The notes: a model not told the origin generated them from the sequence alone. Positions 1,062 through 20,716 are shown, numbered from the stretch's first letter. The stretch is 44,653 bases of DNA from Alphaproteobacteria bacterium (GCA_017960855.1 JAGCYJ010000008.1:1-44653); one strand, 5' to 3'. Numbers and translations are program-made.

Positions 1062-4000
1062 TTACCAAGACATATATCCCGGATTACATGTGCGTACACA
1101 CTTCTTAAGCATGTCGTTCCACATTACCGAACCTGTTTCGTCTGAATATGGTCGGTCGCAAATTGGAACACATTCATTGTTTTCCAGGTTGTACTTTTCA
1201 CCTTGGTACATACAAGTTGCGATTTCACAACCTGTAATGTATCCGCTGGCCGCGACTTCACCCAATATGCTGAACTTGTTGCGGCATTCGCTGCATTGTT
1301 CAGATGCATTGTTCTTTTCACTTGGGTCGTTGGTATAACCTGGCGCGCAAGATGTTGCTTCGCATGGATCCCAATCTTTTCTGTCGGCATTCCATGTCTT
1401 GACACCAACACCGTTTGCCACAGTGCAAACCTGTTCATTTGCAACACACGCGTTCGAAGCCAAATGATAATCTTCTTCGCAGGTCTTTATGATGCAGGTT
1501 TCGTATGCTCCCAGTGTGCCATTCCATTTCTGTTCGGCATAGGTCGAGTTTGGCGCCTGTGGTGTGCACTCTAATATGTCTGACTCACATTGATCCGCCT
1601 TTGGATGATACCCAATCGCGCAAGCAGACACCATACAGGTACCTTCGGTCTCGTAGGACAGTGCATTTTCACGGTTACATGGTTCGCAAACACCACTAAT
1701 CATTTCATAACCGGTCTGGCATCCAGTCATTGTGCACATACCTGTGTCTTCGTCATAGTCCGCTGGATTGCCATTGACGGTCGCAGTGTACTTACACTTG
1801 TCGTTCCAGTACGCGTTGTATTCGCTGCCACCTTCTGGTACTAAATGACAATCGTTTTCGTCATGTTCGGTGCACTCGCGATAGCACTGGTCTTTCCGTG
1901 TGGCACCTGGAGCACTGTTTGGCCAACCCGCCGGACAAGATGTTGAACCATCGCCATTACCGCCATCGGTGCCGTCACAGTAATTTCCTGCTTCACAGCG
2001 GACACATTGTGTTTTGTCTGCGTTAAACATATATCCAACACCACACGATACGATTTCGCAAGTGTCAGCAGGTTCGCCACCGCCATTATTGTTATAATCG
2101 CGTCCGCTCATAGCTGTCGCATTAGCGGCATTATCGCAATCTTTATAACAGTACTTGGCATCACTTGCACCCTCGTCAGATTGGGTATATGGTGACGGAC
2201 AAGTGTGTTTATCCGTGCCGTCGCAGTAACTGCCCGCTGGACAAGTTTGACATGTGCCATTTTCCAGATAGTATCCTGGCTCACAAGTCGTGATTTCACA
2301 TGTGTCTGCAACACCATAATTGTCGCGTCCGGACATTGTTGCCGCGGGTGGTGTCACTTCGCAGTCCGTGTAGCACAAATCAATACTACTGTTCCCTGTG
2401 TCAGAGTTAGGATGAGATGCCGGACAGTCGTTCTTGTCATTGCCGTCGCAATAACTACCCGCTGGACACGTCACACATGCGTTGTCTTCCAGATAGTATC
2501 CAGGTTCACACTTGGTTATGACACAGGTGTCTGGGACATTACCCGCATCGTTATAATCGCGCCCATCCATTTCGGCTGCTGGTGATGACACCTCGCACTC
2601 TGCCCAACAGTACGCAGGGTCACTGGTCCCCGCATCAGACCTGGTGTACTGACCATTTGTTAATTCAGCGCAGGTCTTGTCACCAATGTCTGGATTGCAG
2701 ACGTGATCTTCTGGGCATTCGAAACAGTCGTCTTCGCTGTCGCTTGTTTCGGTTAGGGTAATTGTCCCCGGCTGACAAGCATAACGATTGGTGTCTCTGT
2801 TCGGACTGTATGAATTGTATCCAACAGGTACGCAGTCAAGTGCCAACGCATCTGCTAACCAATATCCACCTTCGCACCAGGTTATCTTCTTGTCGCCACA
2901 TCCGATATTATACGCCTGGACGTCCGGATCGTCATTCCAATTACATGTCTGCGATCCGCCACCATGTGTGGCTTCGTATTCCAAACCATCCTTGAAGCAC
3001 AAACCGATATCCGCAGTTGTTATACCATTGGTCTTACCGCCGTCTGGGCATGCGTGTCTTTCAATATCGTTTTCTGGACTGTAATTGTTCTGTCCAACTT
3101 CTGTACAGGTCACATCTGTGCTGTTCGCACGATAATATCCGCCACGGCATGCATTGATGGATTGATCAAAACATTCGCGCCCATACACAGCAGAATCACC
3201 TTCGCCACTGGAATACCAGCAACTTTGTGTTCCTGAACCAGACGAGTCAGGTGCAGTATAATCCAAACCTGTCTTGTAGCATTCATATATGCTTTCAGCC
3301 GTCTTGTTGTTGGCCATAGTTGTTCCGCCATTCGGACACTGATGTCTAATCAGTTCGTCATCGCCACTGTAATACCCAACATCCGCTTCAGAGCAGTCAA
3401 TGTCAGATTCGCCCGCTAACCAATAACCCGCATCGCACGATGTTATCGCAAAGTCTTTGCAGCGTGCAGAATATGAACGCGCTTCGTTATCATAGTAGCA
3501 GGTTTGTGTACCATGACCATGATCCGCTTCATATGTCGGCAATAGTTCTTTATAGCAGTCCGAAATATCATCCGAACCAGCTGGTGATTTACCGCCGTCT
3601 GGACACACGGTCATACCCGCTTCGCCAGAGTTAGTATCCACCGTTGTGCCTTCGCAGTAATTGTTTTCTTCACAGGTCTTACATACATTCGGATCCGTTG
3701 GATCTTCACCGGTGCCGGCATAGTATGTTCCAGCTGGACATGTTATCGGTGCATCAGACCATTGTGCCACTACGGTTGCGTTTCCTGCTGTGAATGTTAA
3801 TGCGGCAACCGAAGTTATAAACTTACCGTCTGAACCGATTACATTCACATCGTTACCCTTGTATCCAGCAAAGGTCATAACACCCTTGACCGGCAAGGTC
3901 GTCAGTTGTGTAATGCTGGTCGTGGCACCTGCATCGGAATACCAGCCGGTTGCGTACTTCAAGTACACTGTAGCTGGGGCACCAGCAGTTGCCGCGCCAT

Positions 4001-7000
4001 TGTGGTTCAATGTAATGGTATAAATATTCGGTGTCCATTGTGCATACAGTGTTGTATCAGATGCATTCGCCGAGATGTTTGTCGTCACTGTTGTGCCGGC
4101 ATCATAACATGTGCCAGAACCATCGGCATTAGTGCACCATTTGTTCGCAGTGCTGTATCCTGTACGCGTATCAACAATCGCCGGCAACGCACATGCACCA
4201 CTGTCAAATACACAGTTTACACTGGCTGGGGTCGAACCAGCACCACCATTCTTGTCCAACGTGATTGTGTATTCATGTGCCACGCACGATGGGTTTGGTG
4301 TTCCATTGCTTTGAACATCGTATCCTGTGACACATGTGATTTCGTACGCACAGGCATTATATGTTGTTGCACTGGCACCTGTGACGTAATCGGATACAGG
4401 AACAACTGTCTTTGAGTGGGCAAATGCACTGGTCGTCAAATCACATGCCTTATAGCATTGTTCATAACTATAAGCATACGGTTCAGAACCCGAGCATCCC
4501 GCCGGACATGCAATCGCGCTTATTGACGATCCTGGGGTCGTCATTGTCGGATTTTCGCTTGGGAATGCCGATTGAGCAGGACTGTAATAGCATGTATTAA
4601 CGCCCGAGCAGAATATGGATGAATCATAGTAATATCCCGCATCACAGGTCAATGCACCGACATTATAGTAATTGGTGTAATCGCCGTTCGCTTCGGTTCC
4701 TTCATAGAACGCCTTGACCCAACCAGTTCCATGTTCCCAAACATGGTTATAGTTTTCCGTCACAACAAATGGATTGTACAATACATAGCATGTTTCTATG
4801 CCACGATATTTCTGATTTGGCACCAAATCAGCTTTACCTGGTGTTCCGTCCTTGTCCGCAGGGCAATTGTGGAACCCGTCTGTATCGCACCACATATCTT
4901 CTGGACATGTGTCGGAATCATAGATACAGGTGTCATATGTATTCTTGGTCGTGTTATAGTGTACCGGTGAATTTGTCACATTAACAATCGTTCCGTTCAA
5001 ATTCTTGGTCGCATTACATGTCAGATAGCACGCCGTTATAGCCGCAGAAGTTGTCGTCGCGGTTGTTGGATTTGTGCTGACCACATCCACCGCGCCGGTA
5101 CCCGCCGGGCATTGTGAGCGTTGCGTTGATATTGTATCTGTGGTCATGGTTGGATCCATATTTTCTGGGGCAGGGCTGTAATATCCTAATCCCACAGCAA
5201 CACAATCCACTGTGTCATCAGATGTTGTCACGCCTTCCAATGCATCCCAATATCCAGCCGCACACTTACGAATAGTATAACTATCGCAATTGGTTGAGTA
5301 TGTATCCGTACTGGTGTTCCAGTGACATCTTGTTGTACGGCCACCATGCGCGGTTTCATCCCATACGCCTTCGCGGACACAACTTGTTACCAGTTCACTT
5401 TCCGTACCATCGGTTGATATGGTATTACGTGTGTCACCATATTCATATACGGCCTCTGGACAGCGATCGCGCGTCGTCAGATATGTGGCACTGTAATACT
5501 GATAACCTACAGCCGTACAGTCGCTTGGATTGGTCGTATCCAGATAGAAACCACTATCGCAGGTCAATATCTGTTCATTCGAGCAATTGGATTCATACTT
5601 CCCGGATGCATAATGACAGATACGGCTTCCGGCACCCTTGGTTGCGGTAAGTTTTACCGTCGCATAGCAGGCAGATGCTTCTGAAGAACCAGTGTTCGAA
5701 GTCACGTTTGGTGCAATGTCAACTAATGCTGTGCCGTTCCATTCTTGTGCTGGGGTATATGTTGTACCCGCAACCGCTGTTGGACACGGTGTTATGAAGT
5801 GATCATCACCATCGGCATCTTCGTCATCATATGCTGTACCACCTTCGCAGTAAGAACCCGCTGGGCATGTTGTGCAAGAACGTGTGTCATAGTCGTAATA
5901 TTCACCCGCCGCACAGGTCTCTGTCTTCTTTTGAATCCAGCTGGCCATCAATTCAATTGGTGTTGTATAATCATTATAAGAGACCAATTTATTTGACGCC
6001 GTAATCACACCGGACTCATTAATGACGGACCACTGTGCCTCTTCGATTGTCGCTTCGTATCCTGTGCAATTCTGTGAACCTTGTGTTGGCATGGTAATAC
6101 TGGTCAAAGGTGTAGTGGCACTGCTATCCGAGAACCAACCAGTGTTATACTTCATATATATTGGTCCGTTGTCACCACCTGTTCCACCATTCTTATTTAA
6201 TGTGAATGTATATATGTTAGGTTCACATGTTGTTCCAACGGTGTGATAACCAGGATTACATACTGGTGCATCATATGTACATGCTGGATATGAACCGCTT
6301 GTTGTGACCGTTGCGTTTTCATAATCGTACGCGGTTATCGTGCCAGCAAAATTCACAGTGCGTGGATTTGCTGCGCGTGAACCAATTATATTATTTGATT
6401 CATCAAGCACATTTTGATCCGAACAAGTGTTATAACACGCTGTCGGTAATCCGCTTGTTTCCGCATTTTCGCCACCAGTTGTTGCATTATCATAGCCCGG
6501 TAACACACTACATGAATAACGTACCATACTTATGTTATCTTCGGTCGTGTTGGTTGGGGCAGGGCTCCAATACCCTGTGCCGACTTTGTTACATGACTGA
6601 GCATCTGGGGCAACACGATAGCGACCTTCGTTACAATACTTTATCTGCACTTTGCCACAATTTGTATAAGCGTCATCGGCATCTTTATAATTACATACTT
6701 GATCACCACCACCTGTGCCATCATTCAGTGGAACACCTGTGCGTGTTGTTTGGCATGCCTCAATAGTGCTGCTGCCTGTGGGCGATGTAACCGTTCCGCC
6801 ACCAGCGTCAGTCGGACAGGTCTTCACACAGCCCGAATCAACAGTATCTTTATATTCAACTGCGACTTCTCCGCCAGGACAATAATATCCAGCTGGACAT
6901 TGTTCCAGTTCGCCCGGTTGAACTTCTGTGGCTGTACGCCCAGCGGTACATGTGTACATACCCTGGGTCCAATGTGCATACAATGTTGTGTCTTCGGTGA

Positions 7001-10000
7001 ATCTTGTATTAGATACATCGATTCTGCCTTCTCTCGTAATGATAATGCTGCCACCAGTTTGTTCTGTGTAGTAACCATCAAATTCCCAGTTGGTAAATGT
7101 TGGTGCTGTAATACTGGTTATACTTGTTGTTGCGGCTGAATCAGAATACCATCCAGTTGCATACTTCTCATATATGTATGTGGTTGTATTATTCTTAGGA
7201 TCAACCAATGTGATGGTATAAGTACCTGGGTTACAAGTAGCATTTGATGGGTCAAACTCATATCCTGGATCACAAGTAATGGTCATATTACAAGAACCGC
7301 TGGCATTACAGTCTGAACCATAGAATTGTTTACCTTGGATACAATAATCGACAGTCGTATCAGTGTAACATACAGGACTGTAATCATAGTCGCAGGTTGC
7401 GTTTTCTGGACAAGTATCTTTTGTACAGGGCAACTCGCAGGTCGTGTAACAAACACTTATATTAGAGAAGTTATTACCGCGTGACAAAGGATGCGTTTCT
7501 GGACATTCCGTACATTCATCAATGTTTAGATAGGTAAACGCTGGACAATAGATGTTGTCATAGGGGCACATAGTATCAGTCACATTCAAACACGTTGATG
7601 TGTTGTAATACATAATCCCAGAAACAGTTGACCAAGTTTGGAAAGTACAAGAGTTTGCAGGTTCTGGCGTCTGCGGGCAATCCCTTGGCGATACACCAAC
7701 AACGCACGGTGCATTATCACATTCTTTGTAGCAACCAGCCGAACTTGTAGAACCTGAATCAGATCCAGTGTAATCTGAACCCAGCGTTGTACAAGATACA
7801 CGACATCCAACGCCACCTTCAATCGCGGTACCCGTACCAGGACAGTAGTAGCCCGAACCACAGGTTTGCATGGTCGTGCCATCGTAATACTTGCCGGCCT
7901 CGCAATTTACGGTATTTTGTGACCAGTGTGCATATAAGATATATGATTGTTCTGCGGCTTTGTCCCAATTCCGCACGGAATGACCAGTTGAATCATAATA
8001 CGATGTTCCACCTGTCTGTGCATCAAAATACCCGGTTAAAGAGAAGGTGTCACGTGTTGCAACGGATGACAATGTTGGCATCGGTGAACCGAACGTAGCC
8101 GTCACAGATGTTTGTCCGTCTGTTCCACTATCTGATCCGCGGTTTGGTGATAATGTGATGTTGTATGTCTTTCCAACACATCCATCGCCAGCAGCATTGG
8201 GTTCATATCCTTCGTTACATGTAAACCCATCTGTTCCACCAGGGCAGTCAGCATTGCTTGGACATGTCACACATGCACCATCTTTCAAATAATAGCCAGA
8301 ATTACACGATGTAGCAGAGCAATTATCTGTCGTTGGGTTTGCTGATGTAACCCTGCCGGCAACAGCGCTGGCACCAGGTACATCTGTTGTTTTACAGTCG
8401 CGATAACATTGTCCAACAACAGTGGATCCTGCGTCTGATTTAGGATATACAGGATTTATTGCTTCGCATGCTGTACAACTGGTTGCGGTTGTTGATGCAA
8501 AATAGTTCGCTTGTGCGACAACTGGCGCAACGACGGTCTTGTTACAAGTAGTCGTATTGGTTGAACAACCGCTTCTGACATTACCGTCGCCATCACCCGT
8601 TGTATTGGAATAGGCCACATATTCACAAGCGGCGGGTGTGCAATCTACAAATGTTGCGCTTGAGCACCCCGCAGGAATAGTTTCTATGTGTTCCCCAGTT
8701 GATGGACGCAGTTTTGTGTCACTGTAACATTGGGTTATTGCAGTAGATGCGGTGCTTTCTGTGTTTGGATATCCGGTTGGACATGTCTGACACGCAGCAC
8801 TGGCTTGTGCGCTTGATGTCTTGTAAGAGCCAGTTGCACACGGTAACCATACCGCATAAACAGTTGTTGATGAATTGATTGTCATTGTTGTTGTTCCGCT
8901 TGTCGCAGATGCGGACGTTGACCATCCATCAAAGACATAGCCGGCACGATAAAATGATGTTGTCGCACCACTTGCCAAAGTACATGAAACACCGGCAGTA
9001 CATGTGGTGTTACTTGGTTTTGTTCCAGATCCACCGTTCAGGTTATATGTAACAGTGAAAGCATCTTGGCTCCAAGTTGCTTTAAGAGCGATATTGCCAT
9101 ATGTGCCAGCGGCAATTTTGAAACTTGTATCGCCACTGCTAGAAGAACCAGAACCCCAATTTGTTGGCGCGGTTGTCACAGTCCAGCCAGTAAATGTATA
9201 ATTTGCTCTTGTAGGATTGGTAACATTTATTGTTTGGGTGACATTATATGTCGCAGGATGTGTTGCACCAGATGGCCAAGAACCATTATCCAAATTATAA
9301 GTTATATTGTATGTATCGGCAGTACATGATACTGTTGAGCCAGATACGGTTGCATTACTATACCCACCCAAACATGTTCCGCTATATGTACAAGAGTTTG
9401 TGCCCTTCGATACGCTACATGTGGCGGCACCTGTTCCCTTGGTACAGGTATCACATGTAAAGTCGGTAATAGGGCATACACCAGGATTTGCTGCATCACA
9501 TGAACCACCATAGTGCTGATCGCCGGATGTAGAATAATTTGTATTATATGTACATGTCGCATTATCTGGACATGTTGCTTGCCCAGAGCATGTCTTGGTA
9601 CAAGACGTATAGCAAGTGCTCTGACTATCTCTGTTACCATCAGAATTTGTATACTCATTTCCTAGTGTTGTACATGATACACAAGCGGTTCCGTTAAAGT
9701 ATTCACCATCTTGACAATTCGCAGCTGTTTCATTCCATACAGCAGTCAAGGTTATTGTTGCACCATTTTCTGTTGTGATATTAGTTATATCTCCACCACC
9801 GGCAACAGACGACTTACTTGGAGTGCAAGAACTGTTGTTTGATTTATTACAAGAGATAGTCCATCCACCAAAGTCATAATTGGTTTTTACCAATGAACCC
9901 TTTGAAGCAGCGGTACAGGTCTGACCATAAGTACAAGTATGATTAGATGGTTTTGTTCCACCGGTATTACCATTACCATTATATGTCACAGTAAAGGTAT

Positions 10001-10574
10001 TAGGTGCGCATTCTTCCCCACTTGCATGATAACCTGTGGCTGTACAGTTTGGTGTCCAACTACCATAAGTCGCGGTACATGCGCCACCAGCTGTGCTGCT
10101 GTATGTAACAGAACGAGTTCTGGTACCACCAGTTATGTTTTGTGTTTCGGTATCATTTAATCTGGAACAAGGTTTACATTCGCCAGAATCTAATTCATAG
10201 TTAGCATCACAAGTAATGGTTTTTGTGCCACATCCAGAACAAGCACCCCATTGACTACATCCCGTACATTGGGATACACCACTAGATCCCGCTGTGCCGC
10301 CGGTGTAATTACCGGTACATGTCTGTGTGCCTGCGTTTGCCTGGCATGTACAGGTCCCATGATCAACACTGCACGTTGTTTGAGTGCAAGATTGTGTGCT
10401 GGTGTTGTTGGTGGCACTGGTACATGCCAAGCAATCACCATTGGATAGATAATATCCAGCAGTACAACTTGTGTACTCTATATCGCACACATAGCCCTCA
10501 GCGAACGCATTTAGTGAAAATACGAACACGAACAATGACAGCAAAAACCCGAGAAAACAGCGCTTTTTTCCCAT
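1062..10574 (-). CDS. Giant secreted cysteine-rich protein with InlB-like repeats (3170 aa)
   Basis: The start is placed at the ATG at 10574, with a purine-rich GAGGGGAAG just upstream and the same MGKKR-type signal peptide as the paralogue. A longer reading from 10664 would run through the promoter and lacks a signal. Cleavage is expected after residue 25 (NAFA). About eight InlB/Listeria-Bacteroides-type repeats are visible. Each opens with an (Y/F)T(I/V)T(Y/L)-x-x-NGG-like strand and closes with a (L/V)YA(H/Q/V)W-like strand. The first starts near residue 192 and the last is near 2100. They are embedded in many Cys modules of the CPAG(S/Y)YC or C-x-x-GYY type. The last third is almost purely Cys-rich, including three near-identical units. 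No membrane anchor or sorting signal is seen at the C-terminus (ends NPGYMSW). Such a protein should need periplasmic disulfide formation. Adhesion or surface coating is plausible but unproven. Confidence 0.9.
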   Translation of the reverse strand: MGKKRCFLGFLLSLFVFVFSLNAFAEGYVCDIEYTSCTAGYYLSNGDCLACTSATNNTSTQSCTQTTCSVDHGTCTCQANAGTQTCTGNYTGGTAGSSGVSQCTGCSQWGACSGCGTKTITCDANYELDSGECKPCSRLNDTETQNITGGTRTRSVTYSSTAGGACTATYGSWTPNCTATGYHASGEECAPNTFTVTYNGNGNTGGTKPSNHTCTYGQTCTAASKGSLVKTNYDFGGWTISCNKSNNSSCTPSKSSVAGGGDITNITTENGATITLTAVWNETAANCQDGEYFNGTACVSCTTLGNEYTNSDGNRDSQSTCYTSCTKTCSGQATCPDNATCTYNTNYSTSGDQHYGGSCDAANPGVCPITDFTCDTCTKGTGAATCSVSKGTNSCTYSGTCLGGYSNATVSGSTVSCTADTYNITYNLDNGSWPSGATHPATYNVTQTINVTNPTRANYTFTGWTVTTAPTNWGSGSSSSGDTSFKIAAGTYGNIALKATWSQDAFTVTYNLNGGSGTKPSNTTCTAGVSCTLASGATTSFYRAGYVFDGWSTSASATSGTTTMTINSSTTVYAVWLPCATGSYKTSSAQASAACQTCPTGYPNTESTASTAITQCYSDTKLRPSTGEHIETIPAGCSSATFVDCTPAACEYVAYSNTTGDGDGNVRSGCSTNTTTCNKTVVAPVVAQANYFASTTATSCTACEAINPVYPKSDAGSTVVGQCYRDCKTTDVPGASAVAGRVTSANPTTDNCSATSCNSGYYLKDGACVTCPSNADCPGGTDGFTCNEGYEPNAAGDGCVGKTYNITLSPNRGSDSGTDGQTSVTATFGSPMPTLSSVATRDTFSLTGYFDAQTGGTSYYDSTGHSVRNWDKAAEQSYILYAHWSQNTVNCEAGKYYDGTTMQTCGSGYYCPGTGTAIEGGVGCRVSCTTLGSDYTGSDSGSTSSAGCYKECDNAPCVVGVSPRDCPQTPEPANSCTFQTWSTVSGIMYYNTSTCLNVTDTMCPYDNIYCPAFTYLNIDECTECPETHPLSRGNNFSNISVCYTTCELPCTKDTCPENATCDYDYSPVCYTDTTVDYCIQGKQFYGSDCNASGSCNMTITCDPGYEFDPSNATCNPGTYTITLVDPKNNTTTYIYEKYATGWYSDSAATTSITSITAPTFTNWEFDGYYTEQTGGSIIITREGRIDVSNTRFTEDTTLYAHWTQGMYTCTAGRTATEVQPGELEQCPAGYYCPGGEVAVEYKDTVDSGCVKTCPTDAGGGTVTSPTGSSTIEACQTTRTGVPLNDGTGGGDQVCNYKDADDAYTNCGKVQIKYCNEGRYRVAPDAQSCNKVGTGYWSPAPTNTTEDNISMVRYSCSVLPGYDNATTGGENAETSGLPTACYNTCSDQNVLDESNNIIGSRAANPRTVNFAGTITAYDYENATVTTSGSYPACTYDAPVCNPGYHTVGTTCEPNIYTFTLNKNGGTGGDNGPIYMKYNTGWFSDSSATTPLTSITMPTQGSQNCTGYEATIEEAQWSVINESGVITASNKLVSYNDYTTPIELMASWIQKKTETCAAGEYYDYDTRSCTTCPAGSYCEGGTAYDDEDADGDDHFITPCPTAVAGTTYTPAQEWNGTALVDIAPNVTSNTGSSEASACYATVKLTATKGAGSRICHYASGKYESNCSNEQILTCDSGFYLDTTNPSDCTAVGYQYYSATYLTTRDRCPEAVYEYGDTRNTISTDGTESELVTSCVREGVWDETAHGGRTTRCHWNTSTDTYSTNCDSYTIRKCAAGYWDALEGVTTSDDTVDCVAVGLGYYSPAPENMDPTMTTDTISTQRSQCPAGTGAVDVVSTNPTTATTTSAAITACYLTCNATKNLNGTIVNVTNSPVHYNTTKNTYDTCIYDSDTCPEDMWCDTDGFHNCPADKDGTPGKADLVPNQKYRGIETCYVLYNPFVVTENYNHVWEHGTGWVKAFYEGTEANGDYTNYYNVGALTCDAGYYYDSSIFCSGVNTCYYSPAQSAFPSENPTMTTPGSSISAIACPAGCSGSEPYAYSYEQCYKACDLTTSAFAHSKTVVPVSDYVTGASATTYNACAYEITCVTGYDVQSNGTPNPSCVAHEYTITLDKNGGAGSTPASVNCVFDSGACALPAIVDTRTGYSTANKWCTNADGSGTCYDAGTTVTTNISANASDTTLYAQWTPNIYTITLNHNGAATAGAPATVYLKYATGWYSDAGATTSITQLTTLPVKGVMTFAGYKGNDVNVIGSDGKFITSVAALTFTAGNATVVAQWSDAPITCPAGTYYAGTGEDPTDPNVCKTCEENNYCEGTTVDTNSGEAGMTVCPDGGKSPAGSDDISDCYKELLPTYEADHGHGTQTCYYDNEARSYSARCKDFAITSCDAGYWLAGESDIDCSEADVGYYSGDDELIRHQCPNGGTTMANNKTAESIYECYKTGLDYTAPDSSGSGTQSCWYSSGEGDSAVYGRECFDQSINACRGGYYRANSTDVTCTEVGQNNYSPENDIERHACPDGGKTNGITTADIGLCFKDGLEYEATHGGGSQTCNWNDDPDVQAYNIGCGDKKITWCEGGYWLADALALDCVPVGYNSYSPNRDTNRYACQPGTITLTETSDSEDDCFECPEDHVCNPDIGDKTCAELTNGQYTRSDAGTSDPAYCWAECEVSSPAAEMDGRDYNDAGNVPDTCVITKCEPGYYLEDNACVTCPAGSYCDGNDKNDCPASHPNSDTGNSSIDLCYTDCEVTPPAATMSGRDNYGVADTCEITTCEPGYYLENGTCQTCPAGSYCDGTDKHTCPSPYTQSDEGASDAKYCYKDCDNAANATAMSGRDYNNNGGGEPADTCEIVSCGVGYMFNADKTQCVRCEAGNYCDGTDGGNGDGSTSCPAGWPNSAPGATRKDQCYRECTEHDENDCHLVPEGGSEYNAYWNDKCKYTATVNGNPADYDEDTGMCTMTGCQTGYEMISGVCEPCNRENALSYETEGTCMVSACAIGYHPKADQCESDILECTPQAPNSTYAEQKWNGTLGAYETCIIKTCEEDYHLASNACVANEQVCTVANGVGVKTWNADRKDWDPCEATSCAPGYTNDPSEKNNASEQCSECRNKFSILGEVAASGYITGCEIATCMYQGEKYNLENNECVPICDRPYSDETGSVMWNDMLKKCVRTCNPGYMSW
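1870..2605 (-). repeat. Three tandem ~76-residue Cys modules inside the giant gene
   Basis: Three consecutive units share the order: CE or CD, then (M)SGRD or MDGRD, DTC(E/V)I, C(E/G)(P/V)GY, a CPAGSYCDG or CEAGNYCDG block, and an ending CY. Units one and two are close at DNA level (both encode CEPGYYLE and CPAGSYCDG). This indicates recent internal duplication. Boundaries are approximate. Confidence 0.75.
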
Positions 10575-10596
10575 AACTTCCCCTCTTTTATATTTT

Positions 10597-10626
10597 ATCG
10601 TAGAAAAAATGGGGCGGGTCACGCAA
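10597..10626 (-). promoter_or_regulatory. Promoter of the giant Cys-rich gene
   Basis: On the minus strand TTGCGT (10621-10626) and TACGAT (10597-10602) are separated by 18 bases. The block resembles the one before the paralogue at 955-984 in both hexamers, the spacer length and a T-run next to the -10. The expected transcript start is about 15 bases before the ATG. Confidence 0.5.
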
Positions 10627-10654
10627 GTGAAAAATGATAATATGAATGTAGAAA

Positions 10655-10678
10655 TAAAAAACACGCCATTGGCGTGTA
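10655..10678 (-). terminator. Terminator after the CAU tRNA
   Basis: On the minus strand ACACGCC and GGCGTGT form a 7-bp hairpin with a 3-base loop, followed by TTTTTTATTTC. It lies 22 bases after the tRNA 3' end. Confidence 0.8.
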
Positions 10679-10698: not shown

Positions 10699-10775
10699 TG
10701 GTGGGTTATGTAGGACTCGAACCCACGACCAAAGCGTTATGAGCGCTCCGCTCTAACCAACTGAGCTAATAACCC
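10699..10775 (-). tRNA. tRNA with CAU anticodon (Ile2 or elongator Met)
   Basis: A full cloverleaf is visible: acceptor GGGTTAT/ATAACCC, D stem GCTC/GAGC, anticodon stem GAGCG/CGCTT with loop CTCATAA, T stem GTGGG/CCTAC around TTCGAGT, discriminator A and an encoded CCA. The anticodon is CAU. An initiator tRNA is excluded because pair 1-72 is G-C and the anticodon stem lacks the three G-C pairs. The variable region TTGGTCG resembles tRNA-Ile2, where the wobble C becomes lysidine, but elongator Met cannot be ruled out by eye. Confidence 0.95.
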
Positions 10776-10784
10776 ACGGCGGTC

Positions 10785-10812
10785 ATTATATCTGTTTTTG
10801 TTTTCCTTGCAA
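10785..10812 (-). promoter_or_regulatory. Promoter of the CAU tRNA
   Basis: On the minus strand TTGCAA (10807-10812), a 16-base spacer and a perfect TATAAT (10785-10790). The predicted start is a few bases before the tRNA 5' end at 10775. Confidence 0.7.
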
Positions 10813-10829
10813 GAGATTTTTATGTAGTG

Positions 10830-10857
10830 TTGACTTTTTGCGGTTTTGTGCTAGCGT
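10830..10857 (+). promoter_or_regulatory. Possible promoter of the ten-repeat protein gene
   Basis: TTGACT (10830-10835) is followed after 16 bases by TAGCGT (10852-10857). That hexamer is preceded by TG plus one base, an extended -10 pattern. The -10 match is weak. Confidence 0.35.
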
Positions 10858-10908
10858 CAAGATTGAAAAGATTAAAATGCTAACCCCCAGAAGAACGGGA
10901 GTTTTTAA

Positions 10909-13212
10909 ATGAGTTCAGTTGAGTTTAAAAAATTAAAAGTTAAAACGGCTGACTGGCTGTCTGCTGCTGAATTACACAAAGGTTATATTGTCGGGGATTT
11001 TTGCCGCATAAAAGAGGCTCTGTCGCGATTGGCTGATGCTAGTGATGGCAAGATTCAGTTAAGACGTACCACCACCAGAACAGGGTTGTGTTTACACAAA
11101 GATGAAATAGCTTGGTTTTGCAAGACGGCTAGCTTGCGTCGCAAGAAAAAGAGTGCGATTACAGAGATTAAAACAAAAACATGGCTTCACGCAGTTGACT
11201 TGAAACATGGCGGTTACATAGATGCCGATATCCCTGAAATTCGTAAAGCATTGAAAATACACCAAACAGATTTGCCAAATTATATCACAATGCAGCGCAT
11301 TGGTAAAAAAACGGGCATATATCTGTTGAATACACCGAAAGCCATAGATGCATTTCGTGCTATATCTGGATACACTGTCGTTGCAGCCAAAAAAACAAAC
11401 AGATGGTTGACGCCAAAAGAATTGGCCGGGACCTATATCAGTGCGAGTTTTGGAACAATAAGAAGACATCTTGGCGAATTTCAAAATGATATGCCAAAAG
11501 AAATCCAGGTTAAACATACTGGTGGACAAAATCATCGGCTTTTGTGTTTGCGTAATACCCCAGATGCGATAAAAACGTTCTGTGCCAAAGCGAATTTGCA
11601 ACTGGTCTGCGAGCTAGAAGACAGAACAGCTGAATGGCTGACCGCTGCTAGATTGAGTAAAAACTATATCCAGGGTGATCCGCGTAAGATATTGGCGGCA
11701 CTTAAAAAATATCAATATACAATGCCAGCGGGAACGATTGCATTAAAACGTTGTAAAACCGGGAAAGCCCTGTGTTTGTTAAACAATGACGATGTTATAA
11801 AAGAATTTTGCAAGCAGTCAGGGTTGATTCAAGCCGGCATACTGGATGGAAAAAGTTGGCTGTCGGCGCGTAGTTTGCACGCAAAAAAACTTATTGCCGG
11901 TTCGTACAAAGAAATAAACAAGGCCTTGAAAGAATGGCGAAAAATCAAGCCCGAATATGTCATAGAAAGACAATATGGCAAAGATATTGCTGTATATCTG
12001 AAAAATGATAGCGATGTCATCGCGCAATTTAGTGTTTTTTGCGCATCACCAGACAGAAAAACAGTCAAATGGTTGACTGCTTTTGCGCTGTTGCATAATG
12101 GAATTGTTTCTGGTACACACAAGAAAATAGAGATGGCATTAAAAGAATGGCAAAAAACTCACCCAGATGATGTTTTGGAAAAGCCATTTGGTAATAAAAG
12201 GGTAATGTTATCTTTACGTAATGATACGGCGGTTATCCGGGCATTTTGTGATGAACAAAAACGCAAAAAAGAAGAATGGTTGCCCATTAGTGCGTTGCAA
12301 AAGGGTAAACTTGTTTCTGGGGATTCAAAGATAATAGAAAGCGTATTAGCAGAATGGGAAGAAAGCAGACCAAGCGATATTTCCAGAAAAAAACATGCCA
12401 CCGGAATGATATTGTGTCTGCGTAATGATCCCGACGTCATAAAACAATTTGCCGAAGTGGTAAAAAACAGAAAATCTAGAAGAGGGCCCAAACAAGCATT
12501 ACAATGGCTTAGTGCTAACGAATTAGAATACAAACTCATAGATGCTGGCTTTTCGGCGATTTATCAAAATTTATGCTTGTACCAAGCCAAAATGAGAGAT
12601 GCAATCCAGCATAAACAAACACCAAATGGTCAAAAGTTGTGTTTGAAACGCGACGCAATAGAAGATTTTTGTAAATTATGCGGGTTAAAAGCGATTACAT
12701 TAAAAACGGCTAATTGGTTGTCCGTCAAAGAATTGTTGGACGGAAAATATATTTCCGGTGTGTACAAGAATATAAAAACCACACTGATGGTGAATCAAAG
12801 ATATAAGCCCGAATATGTGCAAATGAAGACACAATGTACAGGCAAACAAATTCTGTGCTTGCTGAATGATCCTGATGCAATTTTGTGGTTGCGCAGAAAG
12901 TTAGAATTGTCCCCACTTGTTTTCCCTGAATATGCGGGCGAATGGGTCAGTGTAAATAATTTATCTAGATTCCACATTTTAGCAACCCCAGAGCAAATAA
13001 CCGCGCGAATACAAGAAATAGAATATAATATCCGTAATGATGTTTGGTATGCGCGTGATGGAAAACGTCGGGTTTTATATCTGCATCGGGATTCAATTGA
13101 AAAATTTTGCCAGATGGCTGGCTTTAAAACGGTGACAGAGATTACTACAAGGATGTCCAATGTTTCGTCTTTGGTCAATTCAACAATAGTAAACTCAAAA
13201 CAAAAATCATAA
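10909..13212 (+). CDS. Protein of ten tandem ~74-residue repeats, unknown function
   Basis: The 767-residue protein is built of ten repeats starting at Trp residues 16, 92, 166, 243, 317, 388, 457, 533, 603 and 679. The consensus is W-L-(S/T)-A-x-x-L, then (Y/L)-I-x-G, I-x-x-A-L, P-x-x-I, G-x-x-L-C-L, N-D-P-D-(A/V)-I-x-x-F-C and a closing G-L. The pattern reads as helix, helix, short beta hairpin, helix, which would suit a winged-helix-like unit. It is rich in Lys and Arg, without a signal peptide or membrane segment, so a cytoplasmic nucleic-acid-binding scaffold is a reasonable guess only. An ACGGGAG ribosome site lies about 9 bases before the ATG. A PIF1-like helicase gene starts 18 bases after its stop on the same strand. 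I do not recognise the family. Confidence 0.9.
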   Translation: MSSVEFKKLKVKTADWLSAAELHKGYIVGDFCRIKEALSRLADASDGKIQLRRTTTRTGLCLHKDEIAWFCKTASLRRKKKSAITEIKTKTWLHAVDLKHGGYIDADIPEIRKALKIHQTDLPNYITMQRIGKKTGIYLLNTPKAIDAFRAISGYTVVAAKKTNRWLTPKELAGTYISASFGTIRRHLGEFQNDMPKEIQVKHTGGQNHRLLCLRNTPDAIKTFCAKANLQLVCELEDRTAEWLTAARLSKNYIQGDPRKILAALKKYQYTMPAGTIALKRCKTGKALCLLNNDDVIKEFCKQSGLIQAGILDGKSWLSARSLHAKKLIAGSYKEINKALKEWRKIKPEYVIERQYGKDIAVYLKNDSDVIAQFSVFCASPDRKTVKWLTAFALLHNGIVSGTHKKIEMALKEWQKTHPDDVLEKPFGNKRVMLSLRNDTAVIRAFCDEQKRKKEEWLPISALQKGKLVSGDSKIIESVLAEWEESRPSDISRKKHATGMILCLRNDPDVIKQFAEVVKNRKSRRGPKQALQWLSANELEYKLIDAGFSAIYQNLCLYQAKMRDAIQHKQTPNGQKLCLKRDAIEDFCKLCGLKAITLKTANWLSVKELLDGKYISGVYKNIKTTLMVNQRYKPEYVQMKTQCTGKQILCLLNDPDAILWLRRKLELSPLVFPEYAGEWVSVNNLSRFHILATPEQITARIQEIEYNIRNDVWYARDGKRRVLYLHRDSIEKFCQMAGFKTVTEITTRMSNVSSLVNSTIVNSKQKS

Positions 13213-13230
13213 ATTGCAAAACGATATAAA

Positions 13231-13250
13231 ATGTGGCAATATGGCCACAT
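13231..13250. repeat. Inverted repeat covering the helicase start
   Basis: ATGTGGC and GCCACAT form a perfect 7-bp inverted repeat around a 6-base centre. It begins at the first possible ATG of the helicase and ends inside the second ATG (13249). It could be an operator or a translation-blocking hairpin, or chance. Confidence 0.4.
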
Positions 13251-14520
13251 GCCTGAATTAGTATCCATTTTGAATCCGGCGCAAAAAGCGGCGTTTAATA
13301 CATTGGAAAACACCCATTCTAATCTGTTGATATTGGGACCGGCCGGCACAGGAAAATCAACTTTTGTTAATTACTTAAAATCCGCTTCTAAGAAACGAAT
13401 TGTGTGTGCATGTCCGACGGCGGTGTCTGCGCTTAATGTTGGCGGGCAAACGATACATTCTCTGTTCCAGATTCAGCCACGCGATTTTATCATGATGGAA
13501 TTGTTGAAACTAAAGGCAAAACCACGCAATATATTGGCGGCCACAGATGTTTTGATAATTGACGAGGTTTCCATGGTTGCGCCAGATTTGCTGGATGCTA
13601 TGGATTACTTGGCGCGTGCTGCGCGGCGAAACAATGAACCGTTTGGCGGGATACAAATCGTTGCGATTGGCGATTTGTTCCAGTTGCCGCCTGTGATAAC
13701 GCGCGAAGCAGAAAAATATTATGCGGCAGAATATGAACACGAAAACGCATATTTTTTTGATTCACACGCATATAAACGTGCAAGTTTCGTACCATTTAAC
13801 TTTGAAACCGTTTATCGTCAAAATGATGGGGAATTATTGCAAAATCTTATGCGGTTGCGTGGGAACGATATTGATGCACTGAATTTCTTTAATAATTGCC
13901 GTATCGAAGATGCCGAACGGCGCGCAAACGCGGTGATTATAACGCCTTTTCGTGCGGTTGCGGAACGCATAAACACAGACCGATTGAATAAAATTGGCGC
14001 GCCAGAGGTTGAATATCATGGCGAAATCACAGGAACCTTTGCTGAACGTGATGTCCCCGCACCGATGAATTTAGTGTTAAAGCAGGGGGCCCTGGTCGTT
14101 TTTGTGAAAAATGGGGACAAATGGCACAATGGATCCATGGGTGTCGTGGAACACCTGGGGACGCACGAGATAATAGTACAATTATTAAACAAAACGCGCG
14201 ATGTTGTCGTCGTAAAGCCGGAAAAATGGCAAAAAATAGAGTACGAACGCGATGAAAACGACCGCCTGAACGAGATAGAAGTCGGCAGTTTTAAGCAATT
14301 TCCGTTGAATTTGGGCTATGCCATGACGATACACAAGGCACAAGGTAAAACTCTGGATGCGGTTGTTGTTGATATTTCACGTGGTGCGTTTGCGCACGGT
14401 CAAACCTATGTCGCATTATCACGCACCAGAAACGCTGGGGATATGCATGTTGCAAGCCCTTTGCGTCAGCGGGATGTTATTTTTGACAATCGCGTATTGA
14501 ATTTTGTAAATAATCTATAG
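13231..14520 (+). CDS. PIF1/RecD-like superfamily 1 helicase
   Basis: This is a 429-residue ATP-dependent DNA helicase of the PIF1/RecD type. Seen motifs are Walker A GPAGTGKST near residue 37, Walker B LIIDEVSMV near 110, motif III GDLFQLPP near 150, and C-terminal motifs MTIHKAQGKT and VALSRTRNAGD. Length fits the short bacterial PIF1-like group. Neither the ATG at 13231 nor the one at 13249 has a clear ribosome site. The second lies nearer the conserved LNPAQ start, so the true protein may be 423 residues. Proteins of this group unwind forked or structured DNA. It probably forms an operon with the ten-repeat protein. Its stop codon abuts the stop of the convergent minus-strand gene. Confidence 0.88.
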   Translation: MWQYGHMPELVSILNPAQKAAFNTLENTHSNLLILGPAGTGKSTFVNYLKSASKKRIVCACPTAVSALNVGGQTIHSLFQIQPRDFIMMELLKLKAKPRNILAATDVLIIDEVSMVAPDLLDAMDYLARAARRNNEPFGGIQIVAIGDLFQLPPVITREAEKYYAAEYEHENAYFFDSHAYKRASFVPFNFETVYRQNDGELLQNLMRLRGNDIDALNFFNNCRIEDAERRANAVIITPFRAVAERINTDRLNKIGAPEVEYHGEITGTFAERDVPAPMNLVLKQGALVVFVKNGDKWHNGSMGVVEHLGTHEIIVQLLNKTRDVVVVKPEKWQKIEYERDENDRLNEIEVGSFKQFPLNLGYAMTIHKAQGKTLDAVVVDISRGAFAHGQTYVALSRTRNAGDMHVASPLRQRDVIFDNRVLNFVNNL

Positions 14521-16385: not shown

Positions 16386-16790
16386 TCATTTTATTGGACA
16401 CATAACTGTACGACTTTGTATTTTGTTGTTATAATTTGCTACCAGTTCGTTATATACCTGTAATGGAAATCTTGCTTCATCTTCAAATTCCAAACATGCT
16501 TCTTTGTGTAATCCTTTTGGATTGTGTAACAAACAATTTTTTTCGCTACAGTTGGTTTGTCTGTTACATTTGAAACTGTATTCTACAAAACCAGGTTTGC
16601 GGGGCCATTCTCGGCTTTCTCTGATATTTGCAAACAAAGAAAAATCAGAATCTGTAATGTTATAAATATGCCAACGATAGTAGTCGTTTTCTGTTGTACG
16701 ATATTCCGCTGCATTTGGGTGCTTGTCAATGAAGTCCAAAATCATTCGTTGAGAATTTGATAACCGTAGTTTCTGAAAAAAACGTATCAT
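16386..16790 (-). CDS. Tandem paralogue A (134 aa), unknown function
   Basis: This is the fourth member of a tandem family lying between tsaB and rimI. It starts MIRFFQKL, chosen over the Met at 16826 because it matches the other members' N-termini. It shares the N-terminal pattern of a short aromatic helix, then SxxQxxILDFIxxH. A central Cys cluster (C-x5-C-x4-C-LLH) and a C-terminal F-x-x-x-VY helix follow. The Cys cluster could bind a metal. This is the most divergent member in its last 15 residues. Confidence 0.75.
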   Translation of the reverse strand: MIRFFQKLRLSNSQRMILDFIDKHPNAAEYRTTENDYYRWHIYNITDSDFSLFANIRESREWPRKPGFVEYSFKCNRQTNCSEKNCLLHNPKGLHKEACLEFEDEARFPLQVYNELVANYNNKIQSRTVMCPIK

Positions 16791-16807
16791 TTTATTTTCC
16801 CTTTCTT

Positions 16808-17203
16808 TTAACGTCCACATGGACACCCGTGTTGCGCAACATAATGATCTAACATCTTTTCATACACCTTTTCGGCAAAATTTCCACAGCCGGAAATAGG
16901 CGTAGTTCTAAGCGAACAATGTTGACATTCGTCTTTAACCGGTTTAGCACATTGAAAAGAATAATGTATTTCATTCGGTCTGGATTCATCAGAGAATTTT
17001 GATAGTGTTGCATTCAATACCATATCGTCAGCTTGAATTGAAACACTGTGACGCGTCCCAATATGAATACTATAATGAAACTCATCTTCACGCATTGTTA
17101 TGGGCTGTTTGACATACGTGATAGAATTTTTGTGTTCTTTGATGAAATCCAAAATCTTGCATTGCGTCGGTGTAAAGAACCATCTTTGAAAAATATTTGC
17201 CAT
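16808..17203 (-). CDS. Tandem paralogue B (131 aa), unknown function
   Basis: The protein starts MANIFQRWFF, continues with TPTQCKILDFIKEH, and ends with FAEKVYEKMLDHYVAQHG, matching members C and D. A Cys cluster (C, then ECQHC, then SGCG) sits near residues 85-110 and another Cys pair is at the C-terminus. An AAAGGTGA ribosome site precedes the ATG. There is no signal peptide. Confidence 0.75.
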   Translation of the reverse strand: MANIFQRWFFTPTQCKILDFIKEHKNSITYVKQPITMREDEFHYSIHIGTRHSVSIQADDMVLNATLSKFSDESRPNEIHYSFQCAKPVKDECQHCSLRTTPISGCGNFAEKVYEKMLDHYVAQHGCPCGR

Positions 17204-17229
17204 TATTTCACCTTTTGGTTGCGTTGTTT

Positions 17230-17631
17230 TTATCTTGATTTCTTAGTCGTGCCACCATGATGTTCAACAAAGGTATTGAACATTTCCGAATAGACCCTTT
17301 TTGCAAAATCTGTTCCTTTCCCTTCTTCGGCTTTCTGCAAAATGCCATCGGGTGTGCGTTGTTCAAAATGATAACTTATTATGCCATTGGTGGGGTAATT
17401 TGGGTTTGTTTCACACACAGAACATAGTGTAAGCAGTGGTTCCGTTTTAGATATGCTGAATATATGAAACTTGTAAACACCTGACGCACTGTATTGATAT
17501 GTAATACTGTCGGCGTTTTCCTTAATTGTGTCCAGCAATGCCATGTTATCCTGTGATAACTTAATGTTGTGTATATCGTAATTTGTTGATTTCTTTCTGC
17601 GTAAAAATATTCTGTTAATCAAATTACTCAT
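17230..17631 (-). CDS. Tandem paralogue C (133 aa), unknown function
   Basis: This member shares SQDNMALLDTIKENADSITY near residue 26 and FAKRVYSEMFNTFVEHHG near the end with members B and D. It has a longer basic N-terminus (RRKK) and has largely lost the Cys cluster: the region that is Cys-rich in the others reads EQRTPDGILQKAEEG. That makes it the odd member of the family. Confidence 0.72.
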   Translation of the reverse strand: MSNLINRIFLRRKKSTNYDIHNIKLSQDNMALLDTIKENADSITYQYSASGVYKFHIFSISKTEPLLTLCSVCETNPNYPTNGIISYHFEQRTPDGILQKAEEGKGTDFAKRVYSEMFNTFVEHHGGTTKKSR

Positions 17632-17643
17632 TGTGTTGTCTCT

Positions 17644-18033
17644 TTAATATGTTGGATATCCATTTAGTGCGACATAATAGCGCATCATCTTCTTGTATAA
17701 ATGGTGCGCAAAACGGGTGTCTTTATCAGAAATCTTTCCATCATGAAACAAGCAATGTTGGTTGTTACATTTTTCACAGTTTCGATTTGCCGCATTGCGT
17801 GGTGACATAAAATATGACACAGATGGTTTCTGGTGATTTGTATATTCGGTAAAATCCACATTTAACCATACTTGATCATTATATATAGACATGTGTCGCG
17901 TGTTGCTTACGGGGGTGTCGTGCTGATATGATGTTCCATGGCCGTATTTAATATTACCAGCATTTTGTTCAACAAGATTCAAGATAGCTAGTTCTGTGGG
18001 TGAGTATGCAATTTTTTCAAATATTGTAATCAT
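17644..18033 (-). CDS. Tandem paralogue D (129 aa), unknown function
   Basis: This is the first member of the tandem family after tsaB. It starts MITIFEKIAYSPTELAILNLVEQ, of which SPTELAILNLV parallels the TPTQCKILDFI of member B. The Cys cluster NCEKCNNQHCLFH near residues 88-100 closely resembles member A. The C-terminus FAHHLYKKMMRYYVALNG is family-typical. An AAGGA ribosome site lies within the end of tsaB. Confidence 0.75.
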   Translation of the reverse strand: MITIFEKIAYSPTELAILNLVEQNAGNIKYGHGTSYQHDTPVSNTRHMSIYNDQVWLNVDFTEYTNHQKPSVSYFMSPRNAANRNCEKCNNQHCLFHDGKISDKDTRFAHHLYKKMMRYYVALNGYPTY

Positions 18034-18582: not shown

Positions 18583-18962
18583 AGTTGTTTTTGTTTCTCA
18601 AAAAGGTTGTAATACAGAATAGGAACAATGCCATAAAGAAGGAACTTAGGTTCTTCTTGGCTTTTTGTGTTTCTGATTGATGCCACATAACTTGCGTGGT
18701 CAAGTATGTCTTCGGACACCCCTGGCAGATATTCCTTGATTGCTCTTATCTCTAGTTTGTGTGATTGGGCGATATACATTTTACGTGCCCAACCAACACT
18801 TCTGGGTTCAAGATCCATTTCGGTTATGAAAAAGTATTGAATTTTATTATAAATATCTTTGTATTGACCGATATTTTGCGCGGTTTCAGCATCTACTATA
18901 CATTTTCGTTTTACGCCATTGTGGTCGTGATATGTTATTTCCTTGGTTGTTTCTTTACTCAT
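18579..18962 (-). CDS. Hypothetical 127-aa protein between lon and tsaB
   Basis: Not recognised. The start overlaps the stop of the Lon-like gene by ATGA and the end overlaps tsaB in the same way, so all three are probably translated together. The sequence is polar with a short N-terminal beta-rich part (ITYHDHNGVKRKCIV) and then helices. It contains no Ser-Lys protease dyad or GxSAG-type motif, so it is not the missing Lon protease domain. Confidence 0.75.
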   Translation of the reverse strand: MSKETTKEITYHDHNGVKRKCIVDAETAQNIGQYKDIYNKIQYFFITEMDLEPRSVGWARKMYIAQSHKLEIRAIKEYLPGVSEDILDHASYVASIRNTKSQEEPKFLLYGIVPILYYNLFEKQKQL

Positions 18963-20716
18963 AATCTTACCCCAAATCCAATTTTTTTATTTAATCCCAC
19001 CGATTTATGTACAGATAATAAATCATCTATTTTTGCGATTGTAAAATCTGTAGGTACATCTTCGCCATCATTTTGCAACAATGCGCGACGCAACATTGCG
19101 GTCAGTTCGCGCTGTAATTCACGAACACCTTCTTCGCTGGTATAATTTTGAATTATATGGCGAATTGCATCATCCGATATAAATATGTTTTGATCTGCCC
19201 AGCCCGTATCGTGTGCCGCGCGTTTAATAAGGTGTTCGCGCGTAATACGGACTTTCTCATCCATGCTGTATCCCGGTATTTCAATGATTTCCATACGATC
19301 CTTTAATGCGTTGGAAATGTTCAGCGTGTTGGCGGTCGCGATAAACAGAACATTTGATAAGTCAAAATCTACTTCCAAATAATGATCGCGGAAGTTTTTG
19401 TTTTGTTCTGGATCCAAGATTTCCAACAAAGCGGATTCCGGATCGCCGCGCCAATCACGTCCCATTTTATCTATTTCGTCCAGCACGATAACAGGATTAT
19501 TTGCTTTGCAACGTTTCAGTGCATCCATAATGCGACCAGTTTGCGCACCAATATATGTTTTGCGATGACCGCGGAAATGCGCCTCGTCTGAAATACCACC
19601 CAATGAAATGCGTTGATATTTACGACCCAATGCCGCCGCAATAGATTTTCCCAGTGATGTTTTACCAACACCCGGCGCACCAACAAAGCACAAAATGCTG
19701 CCTTGGTTTTTGCCGGTTTTCTTCATAACAGCAATATGTTCCAAAATGCGTTCTTTGACCGCGTCCATACCAGAGTGTTCGCTGTCCAGCACCGCACGCG
19801 CGGTTTTTAAATCAATAGGTTGTTTATCAGGTTTATCCCATGGCATAGACAACATTTCGTCCAGATATGCTTTTAACAAACCGCCTTCGTTTGACATTGG
19901 CGACAAAGTGCGCATACGGCGCCATTCGGACATCGCTTTGTCTTTGGCGTCCGCCGGCATAGACGATTTTTCAATGCGGGCGCGCATATTTTCAGCATCC
20001 ATTTCTTCATCAACTTCGCCCATTTCATGCTGAATCGCGCGCATTTTTTCCTGTAATATCGCTTCGCGGCGACCTTTTTCCATTTGTTGATTTATACGGC
20101 GGTTAATGGAATCTTCGATTTTCATTGTTTCCGCCAGCAAATTTACTTGTTCCAGCAAAATAATCAACTTTTCGCGCCAAGTTTCCGCACACAGAATGTT
20201 GATTGCAATATCGGTATCAATGTCCAACATTTGTACCACCGCATCAACAAAGGCGGGCAGTGGATAGTTTTGAATAACGGTGCGCAGTTTGTCCATTTTG
20301 AACTTGCGGGCACTGGACATTGCTTGAATATTATTCGCAATTTTATCGCGCAGGGCAATTGTTTGGTCAAATTCACTGTCGTCCAAAACATTTATCGGGC
20401 TAACTTCGCCCATGAATATACCGTTTTCCACAGATATATCGGTAATGTGTACAGCACTTATCGTGCGAACAATTGCGTGCAATGAACCGTCCGGCATACG
20501 CAGAACCTGGGCAATTTCGCCAATTGTGCCGACTTTATAAATGTCGGCGGGTTCGGCGGGGTATCCCCAACTGTGTTGTGCAGTCAAAACGACTTGCTTG
20601 CCAGCATTGGCAGCCGCCTCTATACAGGCGACAGACAGCGGATTGTCTATATAAATCGGAACAGTAAGCCCAGGATTTACGACCAAATCACGAAAAGGCA
20701 GAATATATTCTTTCAT
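18959..20716 (-). CDS. Lon-like AAA+ ATPase lacking the protease domain (585 aa)
   Basis: The protein has the Lon N-terminal domain (ILPFRDLVVNPG at residue 5; domain to about 200), the linker helix (INQQMEKGRREAILQEKM near 208) and a complete AAA+ module. The module has Walker A GAPGVGKT (346-353), Walker B VIVLDEID (409-416), the RISLGGISDEAHFRGHRKTY stretch near 369 and an arginine-containing C-terminal helical domain. It ends at residue 585 (FGVRL), about where the S16 peptidase domain with its Ser-Lys dyad would begin; full Lon is about 780-810 residues. The stop overlaps the next ATG by 4 bases, so this looks like a settled gene end rather than a fresh frameshift. It would act as an ATP-driven unfoldase or chaperone without proteolysis, by inference. 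Confidence 0.93.
   Translation of the reverse strand: MKEYILPFRDLVVNPGLTVPIYIDNPLSVACIEAAANAGKQVVLTAQHSWGYPAEPADIYKVGTIGEIAQVLRMPDGSLHAIVRTISAVHITDISVENGIFMGEVSPINVLDDSEFDQTIALRDKIANNIQAMSSARKFKMDKLRTVIQNYPLPAFVDAVVQMLDIDTDIAINILCAETWREKLIILLEQVNLLAETMKIEDSINRRINQQMEKGRREAILQEKMRAIQHEMGEVDEEMDAENMRARIEKSSMPADAKDKAMSEWRRMRTLSPMSNEGGLLKAYLDEMLSMPWDKPDKQPIDLKTARAVLDSEHSGMDAVKERILEHIAVMKKTGKNQGSILCFVGAPGVGKTSLGKSIAAALGRKYQRISLGGISDEAHFRGHRKTYIGAQTGRIMDALKRCKANNPVIVLDEIDKMGRDWRGDPESALLEILDPEQNKNFRDHYLEVDFDLSNVLFIATANTLNISNALKDRMEIIEIPGYSMDEKVRITREHLIKRAAHDTGWADQNIFISDDAIRHIIQNYTSEEGVRELQRELTAMLRRALLQNDGEDVPTDFTIAKIDDLLSVHKSVGLNKKIGFGVRL

Follow-up and report, generated by a model that had tools for sequence, protein, structure and literature searches.

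A tandem array of predicted winged helix-turn-helix units, stand-alone or fused to an SF2 helicase, as a candidate modular DNA-recognition system in Alphaproteobacteria

We analysed a 44,653-nucleotide stretch of DNA (hereafter the window) from an Alphaproteobacteria bacterium (GCA_017960855.1, JAGCYJ010000008.1), a contig of a 646 kb assembly that is 60% complete, in which positions 10909 to 13212 encode a protein made of ten tandem repeats. Our preferred reading, to which we assign a probability of roughly 0.55, is that this protein is a modular, diversifying array recognizing double-stranded DNA (dsDNA), of a kind that normally targets a superfamily 2 (SF2) translocase, possibly against foreign DNA, and that occurs by itself in the window. 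Sequence-specific, modular recognition of dsDNA under diversifying selection is suggested jointly by the conserved scaffold, by the concentration of variation at predicted DNA contacts, by the differences among units of one array, and by the exchange of whole arrays or single units while the motor is conserved.

The array protein and the predicted fold of its units

The array protein and its units are as follows; genomes are designated by G numbers (G000 is the window genome and G057 its sister) and array loci by L numbers.

10909..13212, plus strand: stand-alone array protein of 767 amino acids (aa), basic, with ten predicted winged helix-turn-helix (HTH) units
10954..11124, plus strand: unit 1, without counterpart in the orthologous nine-unit array of G057
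11182..11361, plus strand: unit 2, unit-profile match
11404..11589, plus strand: unit 3, unit-profile match
11635..11814, plus strand: unit 4, unit-profile match
11857..12030, plus strand: unit 5, unit-profile match
12070..12252, plus strand: unit 6, unit-profile match
12277..12456, plus strand: unit 7, unit-profile match
12505..12675, plus strand: unit 8, unit-profile match, chosen for structure prediction
12715..12900, plus strand: unit 9, unit-profile match
12943..13116, plus strand: unit 10, unit-profile match, followed by a short C-terminal tail

The units start at residues 16, 92, 166, 243, 317, 388, 457, 533, 603 and 679, with a spacing of 69-77 aa (mean 73.7), which bears out the ten units of about 74 residues described in an earlier note on this DNA. 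The motifs by which that note had defined them are looser than it stated: WL[ST]A is exact in five of the ten units (the others carry WLHA, WLTP, WLPI, WLSV or WVSV), and the closing N-D-P-D-A-I..F-C holds as a consensus but not as a constant feature. Column identity across the ten units averages 44%, and W1, L7, I19, L47 and I52 (first-unit numbering) are invariant. A hidden Markov model (HMM) built from the window units only recovered arrays at 23 other loci in related genomes, with E values from about 1e-7 to 1e-131, and the repeat is therefore not a product of chance. A multi-species unit profile, which includes the window units, matched all ten of them with E <= 4.3e-16, and the reading frame is open. 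As the note had expected of a predicted nucleic-acid-binding array, the protein is strongly basic, with an isoelectric point of 9.7 and a net charge of about +54. Its statement that the repeat belongs to no named family also stands, since Pfam, NCBIfam, PHROG and PADLOC profiles assigned none to the array protein; the weak Pfam matches (e.g. KfrA_N, SIL1) are local and lie under their cut-offs.

The structure of unit 8, predicted from 44 aligned units, is a winged HTH with a predicted local distance difference test score (pLDDT) of 94.8. Its elements are a helix at positions 4-10, a second at 16-26, strands at 34-39 and 42-47 and a last helix at 49-57, so that the unit comprises about 58 aa followed by a linker of about 15 aa; the order of two helices, β-hairpin and helix is that forecast by the note, and the unit has the alpha-alpha-beta hairpin-alpha layout of about 50-60 residues that we used to define the fold. 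The top structural neighbour was DNA-bound RacA (Z 5.5, 1.7 Å over 50 of 58 residues), and further neighbours were a ParA-type partition protein, BldC and two Xis proteins; in a search of viral models the first match was an excisionase. A four-unit model (pLDDT 86; predicted template modelling score, pTM, 0.44) gave every unit the same secondary structure. Comparison of the unit profile with solved structures returned no meaningful match, though families outside the fold-search lists may still match. On the predicted structure, each unit would be a MerR/Xis-type winged HTH, which replaces the "unassigned fold" of the note; because the scores are modest and Foldseek never gave an E value below 0.001, we claim fold class only and not family membership. 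At that level, we regard the identity of the repeat as a winged-HTH array as very likely.

Variation, exchange and the SF2 motor

The DNA contacts of BldC served as a guide to the predicted DNA-facing side of the unit. In the BldC-DNA complex, contacts are made by Ala15 N, Asp24 N, Lys26, Thr27, Thr29, Arg30, Trp31, Lys33 and the wing (PMC5859096), and transfer through secondary structure and conserved hydrophobics places them at unit positions 5, 15, 17, 18, 20, 21, 22, 24 and 42-44. This transfer was made after a first variability table had been seen, the list of buried positions is our own and follows the conserved hydrophobic columns, and the wing could be aligned only approximately. Within arrays, mean identity was 0.26 at the predicted HTH contacts and 0.45 over all non-buried positions (P=0.002), and the excess of variability also held when the wing tip was added to the contacts (P=1.5e-4); the eight most variable columns were 16, 42, 17, 5, 15, 21, 18 and 24. 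For 106 within-array pairs of units with >=60% identity, the ratio of nonsynonymous to synonymous substitution rates (dN/dS) was 0.72 at predicted contacts, 0.26 at other exposed positions and 0.06 at buried ones, while dS was about equal in the three classes. The contact ratio exceeded that of other exposed positions in 20 of 20 arrays, which are related and not independent. The youngest array, L042, gives the same picture on a small scale: its six units are near-identical save at positions 3, 5, 15-18, 21 and 41-43, and of the ten positions at which at least three residues occur, seven fall on predicted contacts (P=1.2e-4).

Closely related loci were compared in core and array, and helicase cores of 97% identity were found to carry arrays of only about 48% identity, the breaks lying at the array ends. 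Between L039 and L032 the helicase core is 93-99% identical at the nucleotide (nt) level and the tail 94%, whereas the array is only 48-66% identical from first to last unit, and the break in identity falls at the first unit. The difference between L034 and L041 is largely confined to unit 4, at 62-68% nt identity against 88-99% for the core and the remaining units; in protein, units 1, 2, 3 and 5 are 93-98% aa identical and unit 4 is 54% identical. Conversely, L039 and L046 have arrays of 97-100% nt identity on cores of only 85-97%. At the window locus itself, the tRNA flank is 100% nt identical to that of G057 over 152 bases and the adjacent helicase 94% aa identical, while the arrays share 38% aa identity and have ten and nine units, respectively. 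Independent assemblies contain the same alleles, an argument against errors of assembly. As judged from these alignments, whole arrays and single units are exchanged repeatedly between otherwise near-identical genes. In a comparison bearing on autoregulation, the upstream regions of genes with near-identical cores varied with both locus and array.

In most relatives, the units lie at the C-terminus of an SF2 (DEAH/ResIII) helicase of 800-1000 aa. The core of this helicase matches PF04851 (ResIII), PF00270 (DEAD) and PF00271 (Helicase_C), has intact Walker A, DEAH and motif VI, and finds its closest solved relatives among XPB/RAD25-type DNA translocases. It is present in 21 genomes, and in 18 of them it is followed by one to seven units; in two of the other three the contig ends first (G063, G134), and in the third (G031) a different tandem repeat is found. 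That repeat, at L103, ends VxDGTxxD...TGI, and at L101 (G024) the same core carries a degenerate array, which suggests that the SF2 core accepts several kinds of C-terminal array. Arrays without helicase were found in the window and at L031, L037, L038, L043 and L045. A link between repeat and helicase of the kind that the note had read as a possible means of recruitment is supported for the SF2 fusion, but not for the PIF1-like neighbour described below.

With the unit profile, arrays were detected in 28 of the 183 genomes of the family, all within one genus, and two genomes from a different family in the order have four-unit arrays; a class sample of 385 genomes gave no array match outside the genus among its other genomes. 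The genome collection was scanned with the SF2-array alignment as query. The related records are alphaproteobacterial or proteobacterial metagenome-assembled genomes of 0.6-1.1 Mb, many of them from ruminants. A phage or plasmid origin of the array was not supported: tblastn found no match in 50,697 phage and 72,556 plasmid records, three queries of IMG/VR gave no array relatives, and in phages the SF2 core met generic helicase matches only. No methylase or HsdS family was recognised in the array, helicase and immediate window genes selected for the search, the flanks being surveyed as lists of open reading frames (ORFs) only; at L050 a methylase-like ORF lies about 6 kb away.

The insertion site and the PIF1-like neighbour

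The array gene of the window lies between a tRNA gene and the gene of a different helicase:

10699..10775, minus strand: tRNA-Met (CAT), left edge of the insertion; directly before the PIF1-like helicase in relatives
10822..13212, plus strand: inserted single-gene segment, ends approximate; relatives show an empty site
13231..14520, plus strand: PIF1-like superfamily 1 (SF1) helicase, a core gene of the family (PF05970, E=1.4e-24), with its conserved start at Met7 (13249)

The earlier note had placed the array in an operon with this helicase, and the annotated helicase ORF does begin 18 bases after the array stop, in the same direction. The functional gap is probably 36 bases, because the conserved helicase start of relatives corresponds to Met7. 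The helicase itself is near-universal and single-copy, being found in 161 of the 183 genomes of the family, and in most fetched relatives without an array at this site it is immediately preceded by tRNA-Met; since array-less relatives have both genes side by side, the array gene can be regarded as an insertion between them. The note had proposed co-occurrence across genomes as a check and absence of the helicase beside homologues as evidence against its view, and absence is what was found: the array adjoins the PIF1-like helicase in G000 and G057 only, and no other array lies beside that helicase. The region upstream of the helicase in the window, TTGCAA...GTGGCA, resembles its counterpart at empty sites. 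Both ends of the insertion carry a TTGCAA box (about 10806-10822 and 13213-13249), and as the right copy resembles the pre-helicase region of empty-site relatives, the helicase promoter may have been duplicated or formed anew by the insertion.

Recruitment of the PIF1-like helicase by the array, with the two genes as a functional operon, would account for the shared direction, the 18-base spacing and an arrangement common to both sister species. We nevertheless hold it to be very unlikely, given that the helicase is a core gene lacking the array in nearly all relatives, that the array splits the tRNA-Met/helicase junction and leaves an upstream region like that of empty sites, and that no further array adjoins such a helicase. 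As a general rule the PIF1 operon is rejected, the array being present at the junction of a core gene in two sister species. From the gene order, the PIF1-like helicase is probably a neighbour by insertion and not a dedicated partner, its adjacency incidental unless shown otherwise.

Other genes of the window are recorded here as side observations. On the minus strand, 1062-10664 holds a cysteine-rich, repeat-rich ORF of 3200 residues with a probable signal peptide, whose start adjoins the tRNA-Met that borders the insertion. Four adjoining ORFs of about 130-146 aa at 16386-18033 (minus strand) resemble diverged tandem paralogues. A Lon homologue of 585 aa (18959-20716, minus strand) ends right after its AAA+ part, without protease domain; its matches are open frames of 587-619 aa in relatives of the same genus and 700-880 aa in other families of the order, and from these lengths Lon seems to have lost its protease domain throughout the genus.

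Proposed mechanism, alternatives and known systems

Taking into consideration the predicted fold and the position of the variable residues, we propose that each unit would present its recognition helix and wing to dsDNA, and that the array would lie along the DNA like head-to-tail BldC or RdfS monomers, with one unit per 9-10 bp. Each unit would read its own short DNA element, so that the array could set a long composite target, at which the fused form may dock its ATP-driven dsDNA translocase; the fusion of units to a translocase suggests that recognition directs the motor. The window form, having no helicase, might act by occupancy (as a roadblock or in silencing) or through a partner in trans. 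The target might be variable or hostile DNA, such as phage, mobile or selfish elements. These steps do not carry equal weight: sequence-specific modular binding of dsDNA appears to us probable, and use against foreign DNA, the least certain step, falls somewhat short of even odds, the idea of a foreign or selfish target being drawn from patchy distribution and rapid turnover and not from defence genes nearby or a recognised defence domain. A bolder version, which we put forward as speculative, takes the array for a programmable-type scaffold in which about eight residues (5, 15-18, 21, 24, 42) set the word read by a unit and shuffled arrays steer the SF2 translocase to invading DNA, a protein-guided, nuclease-free immunity; if true, it would be a mechanism so far undescribed in bacteria.

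Several observations weigh against the proposed modular recognition array. BldC (PMC5859096) and RdfS (PMC11963761) read DNA largely indirectly, and one unit therefore need not equal one specific word. The fold match is modest (Z 5.5, with no Foldseek E value below the level given above), Pfam, NCBIfam and PHROG profiles give the units no MerR, HTH_17 or Xis match, and the pTM of the four-unit model leaves the relative orientation of the units uncertain. In the contact test the window array taken alone is marginal (P=0.05, or P=0.011 once the wing is included), and the 26 differences that arose recently between orthologous units give a borderline result (P=0.05). Some fused arrays are hardly basic, with a net charge of -2 at L050 and about +1 per unit at L048 and L052. 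Finally, the flanking ORF lists, which were not systematically annotated, show no recurring nuclease, methylase or other defence gene, and PADLOC gives generic SF2 similarity only.

One alternative takes the array for an architectural DNA-binding protein, non-specific or with indirect readout and nucleoid- or filament-like in the manner of RdfS and Xis filaments, the fused arrays simply making the helicase more processive or binding it more tightly to DNA. RdfS and BldC do coat DNA with few base contacts (PMC11963761, PMC5859096), and the window array is strongly basic; a generic clamp, however, should need neither hypervariable recognition-helix positions between neighbouring units nor swaps of arrays or single units on conserved cores, and several fused arrays are almost neutral, so that we consider this explanation unlikely. 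A sequence-specific regulator or silencer of host genes, diversifying with its regulatory targets and not in defence, is another alternative. MerR/BldC-like domains are mostly regulators and the helicase-free arrays exist, but the units are usually joined to a translocase, and the patchy occurrence and high allele turnover would be unusual in a host regulator; we judge it to be as improbable as the clamp.

It is less likely still that the variable surface binds proteins or RNA instead of dsDNA. Some winged helices do so, and the fold alone is no proof of DNA binding; yet the variable positions coincide with the DNA-contact residues of BldC, and DNA translocases are the nearest relatives of the SF2 core. 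Decay of the gene under relaxed constraint is a hardly credible source of the variation: the window array is old and diverged and some of its units score low, but buried positions remain strongly constrained, the frame is open, and variation is uneven over the exposed sites.

Among known systems, the nearest architectural parallel to the array is the HA domain (PF03457), several small predicted DNA-binding copies of which follow the ResIII/DEAD core of SF2 helicases and whose function is unknown. As in the relatives of the array, and unlike the helicase-free window protein, the repeats are C-terminal to the SF2 core. The HA domain is described as all-helical, whereas the array unit has a β-hairpin wing, and assignment to PF03457 was rejected, with no profile match in the window protein or in eight relatives. 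Type I restriction systems also combine a conserved motor with frequently exchanged DNA-recognition modules (HsdS). The likeness lies in that combination; a difference is that no methylase, nuclease or HsdS domain was recognised in the array protein, whose recognition part consists of tandem units, either on the motor polypeptide or by themselves.

BldC of Streptomyces resembles the unit in fold and in the order of secondary structure, and the variable array positions match its contacts. This MerR-like winged HTH binds head to tail on direct repeats, with about 9 bp per protomer (PMC5859096), but it is a single domain of 68 residues that assembles identical copies, whereas the array links as many as ten different units in one chain, which in relatives also includes a helicase. 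The Xis/RDF excisionases (Tn916 Xis, Pukovnik Xis, RdfS; PMC11963761) are of the same small winged-HTH type and line DNA like a filament; in contrast to the array, they form no covalent tandem arrays and serve to excise mobile elements, and the array has no recognised integrase beside it. In TALE and TALE-like proteins, C2H2 zinc-finger arrays (PRDM9, KRAB-ZNF) and STAR/MOON/pTERF (PMC11417379), a tandem scaffold has, like the array, few hypervariable DNA-facing positions and units that are gained, lost or exchanged. Their folds differ from that of the array, and TALE repeats and zinc fingers, unlike the array, have an established recognition code. The array is not itself TALE-like, as TALE-like repeats have about 33-35 aa, two helices and a base-specifying loop, in place of a winged HTH of about 58 aa plus linker. 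Each TALE-like repeat specifies one base through hypervariable residues, and the array units do contain hypervariable positions. The 2024 screen, the largest recent one for DNA-binding repeat proteins, covered periods of 15-35 aa only (PMC11417379), and units spaced about 74 aa apart thus fall outside it. None of the papers that we searched describes a tandem winged-HTH array like this one.

Nature offers few modular arrays that read DNA, namely zinc fingers, TALE-like repeats and a small number of recently described repeat families. The array idea is directly testable with natural pairs of alleles, among them L034 and L041. If it is true, a bacterial winged-helix array with code-like variation, exchanged on a conserved motor, would be a new scaffold for the evolution of DNA specificity, and would hint at a helicase-based targeting system in gut bacteria with tiny genomes.

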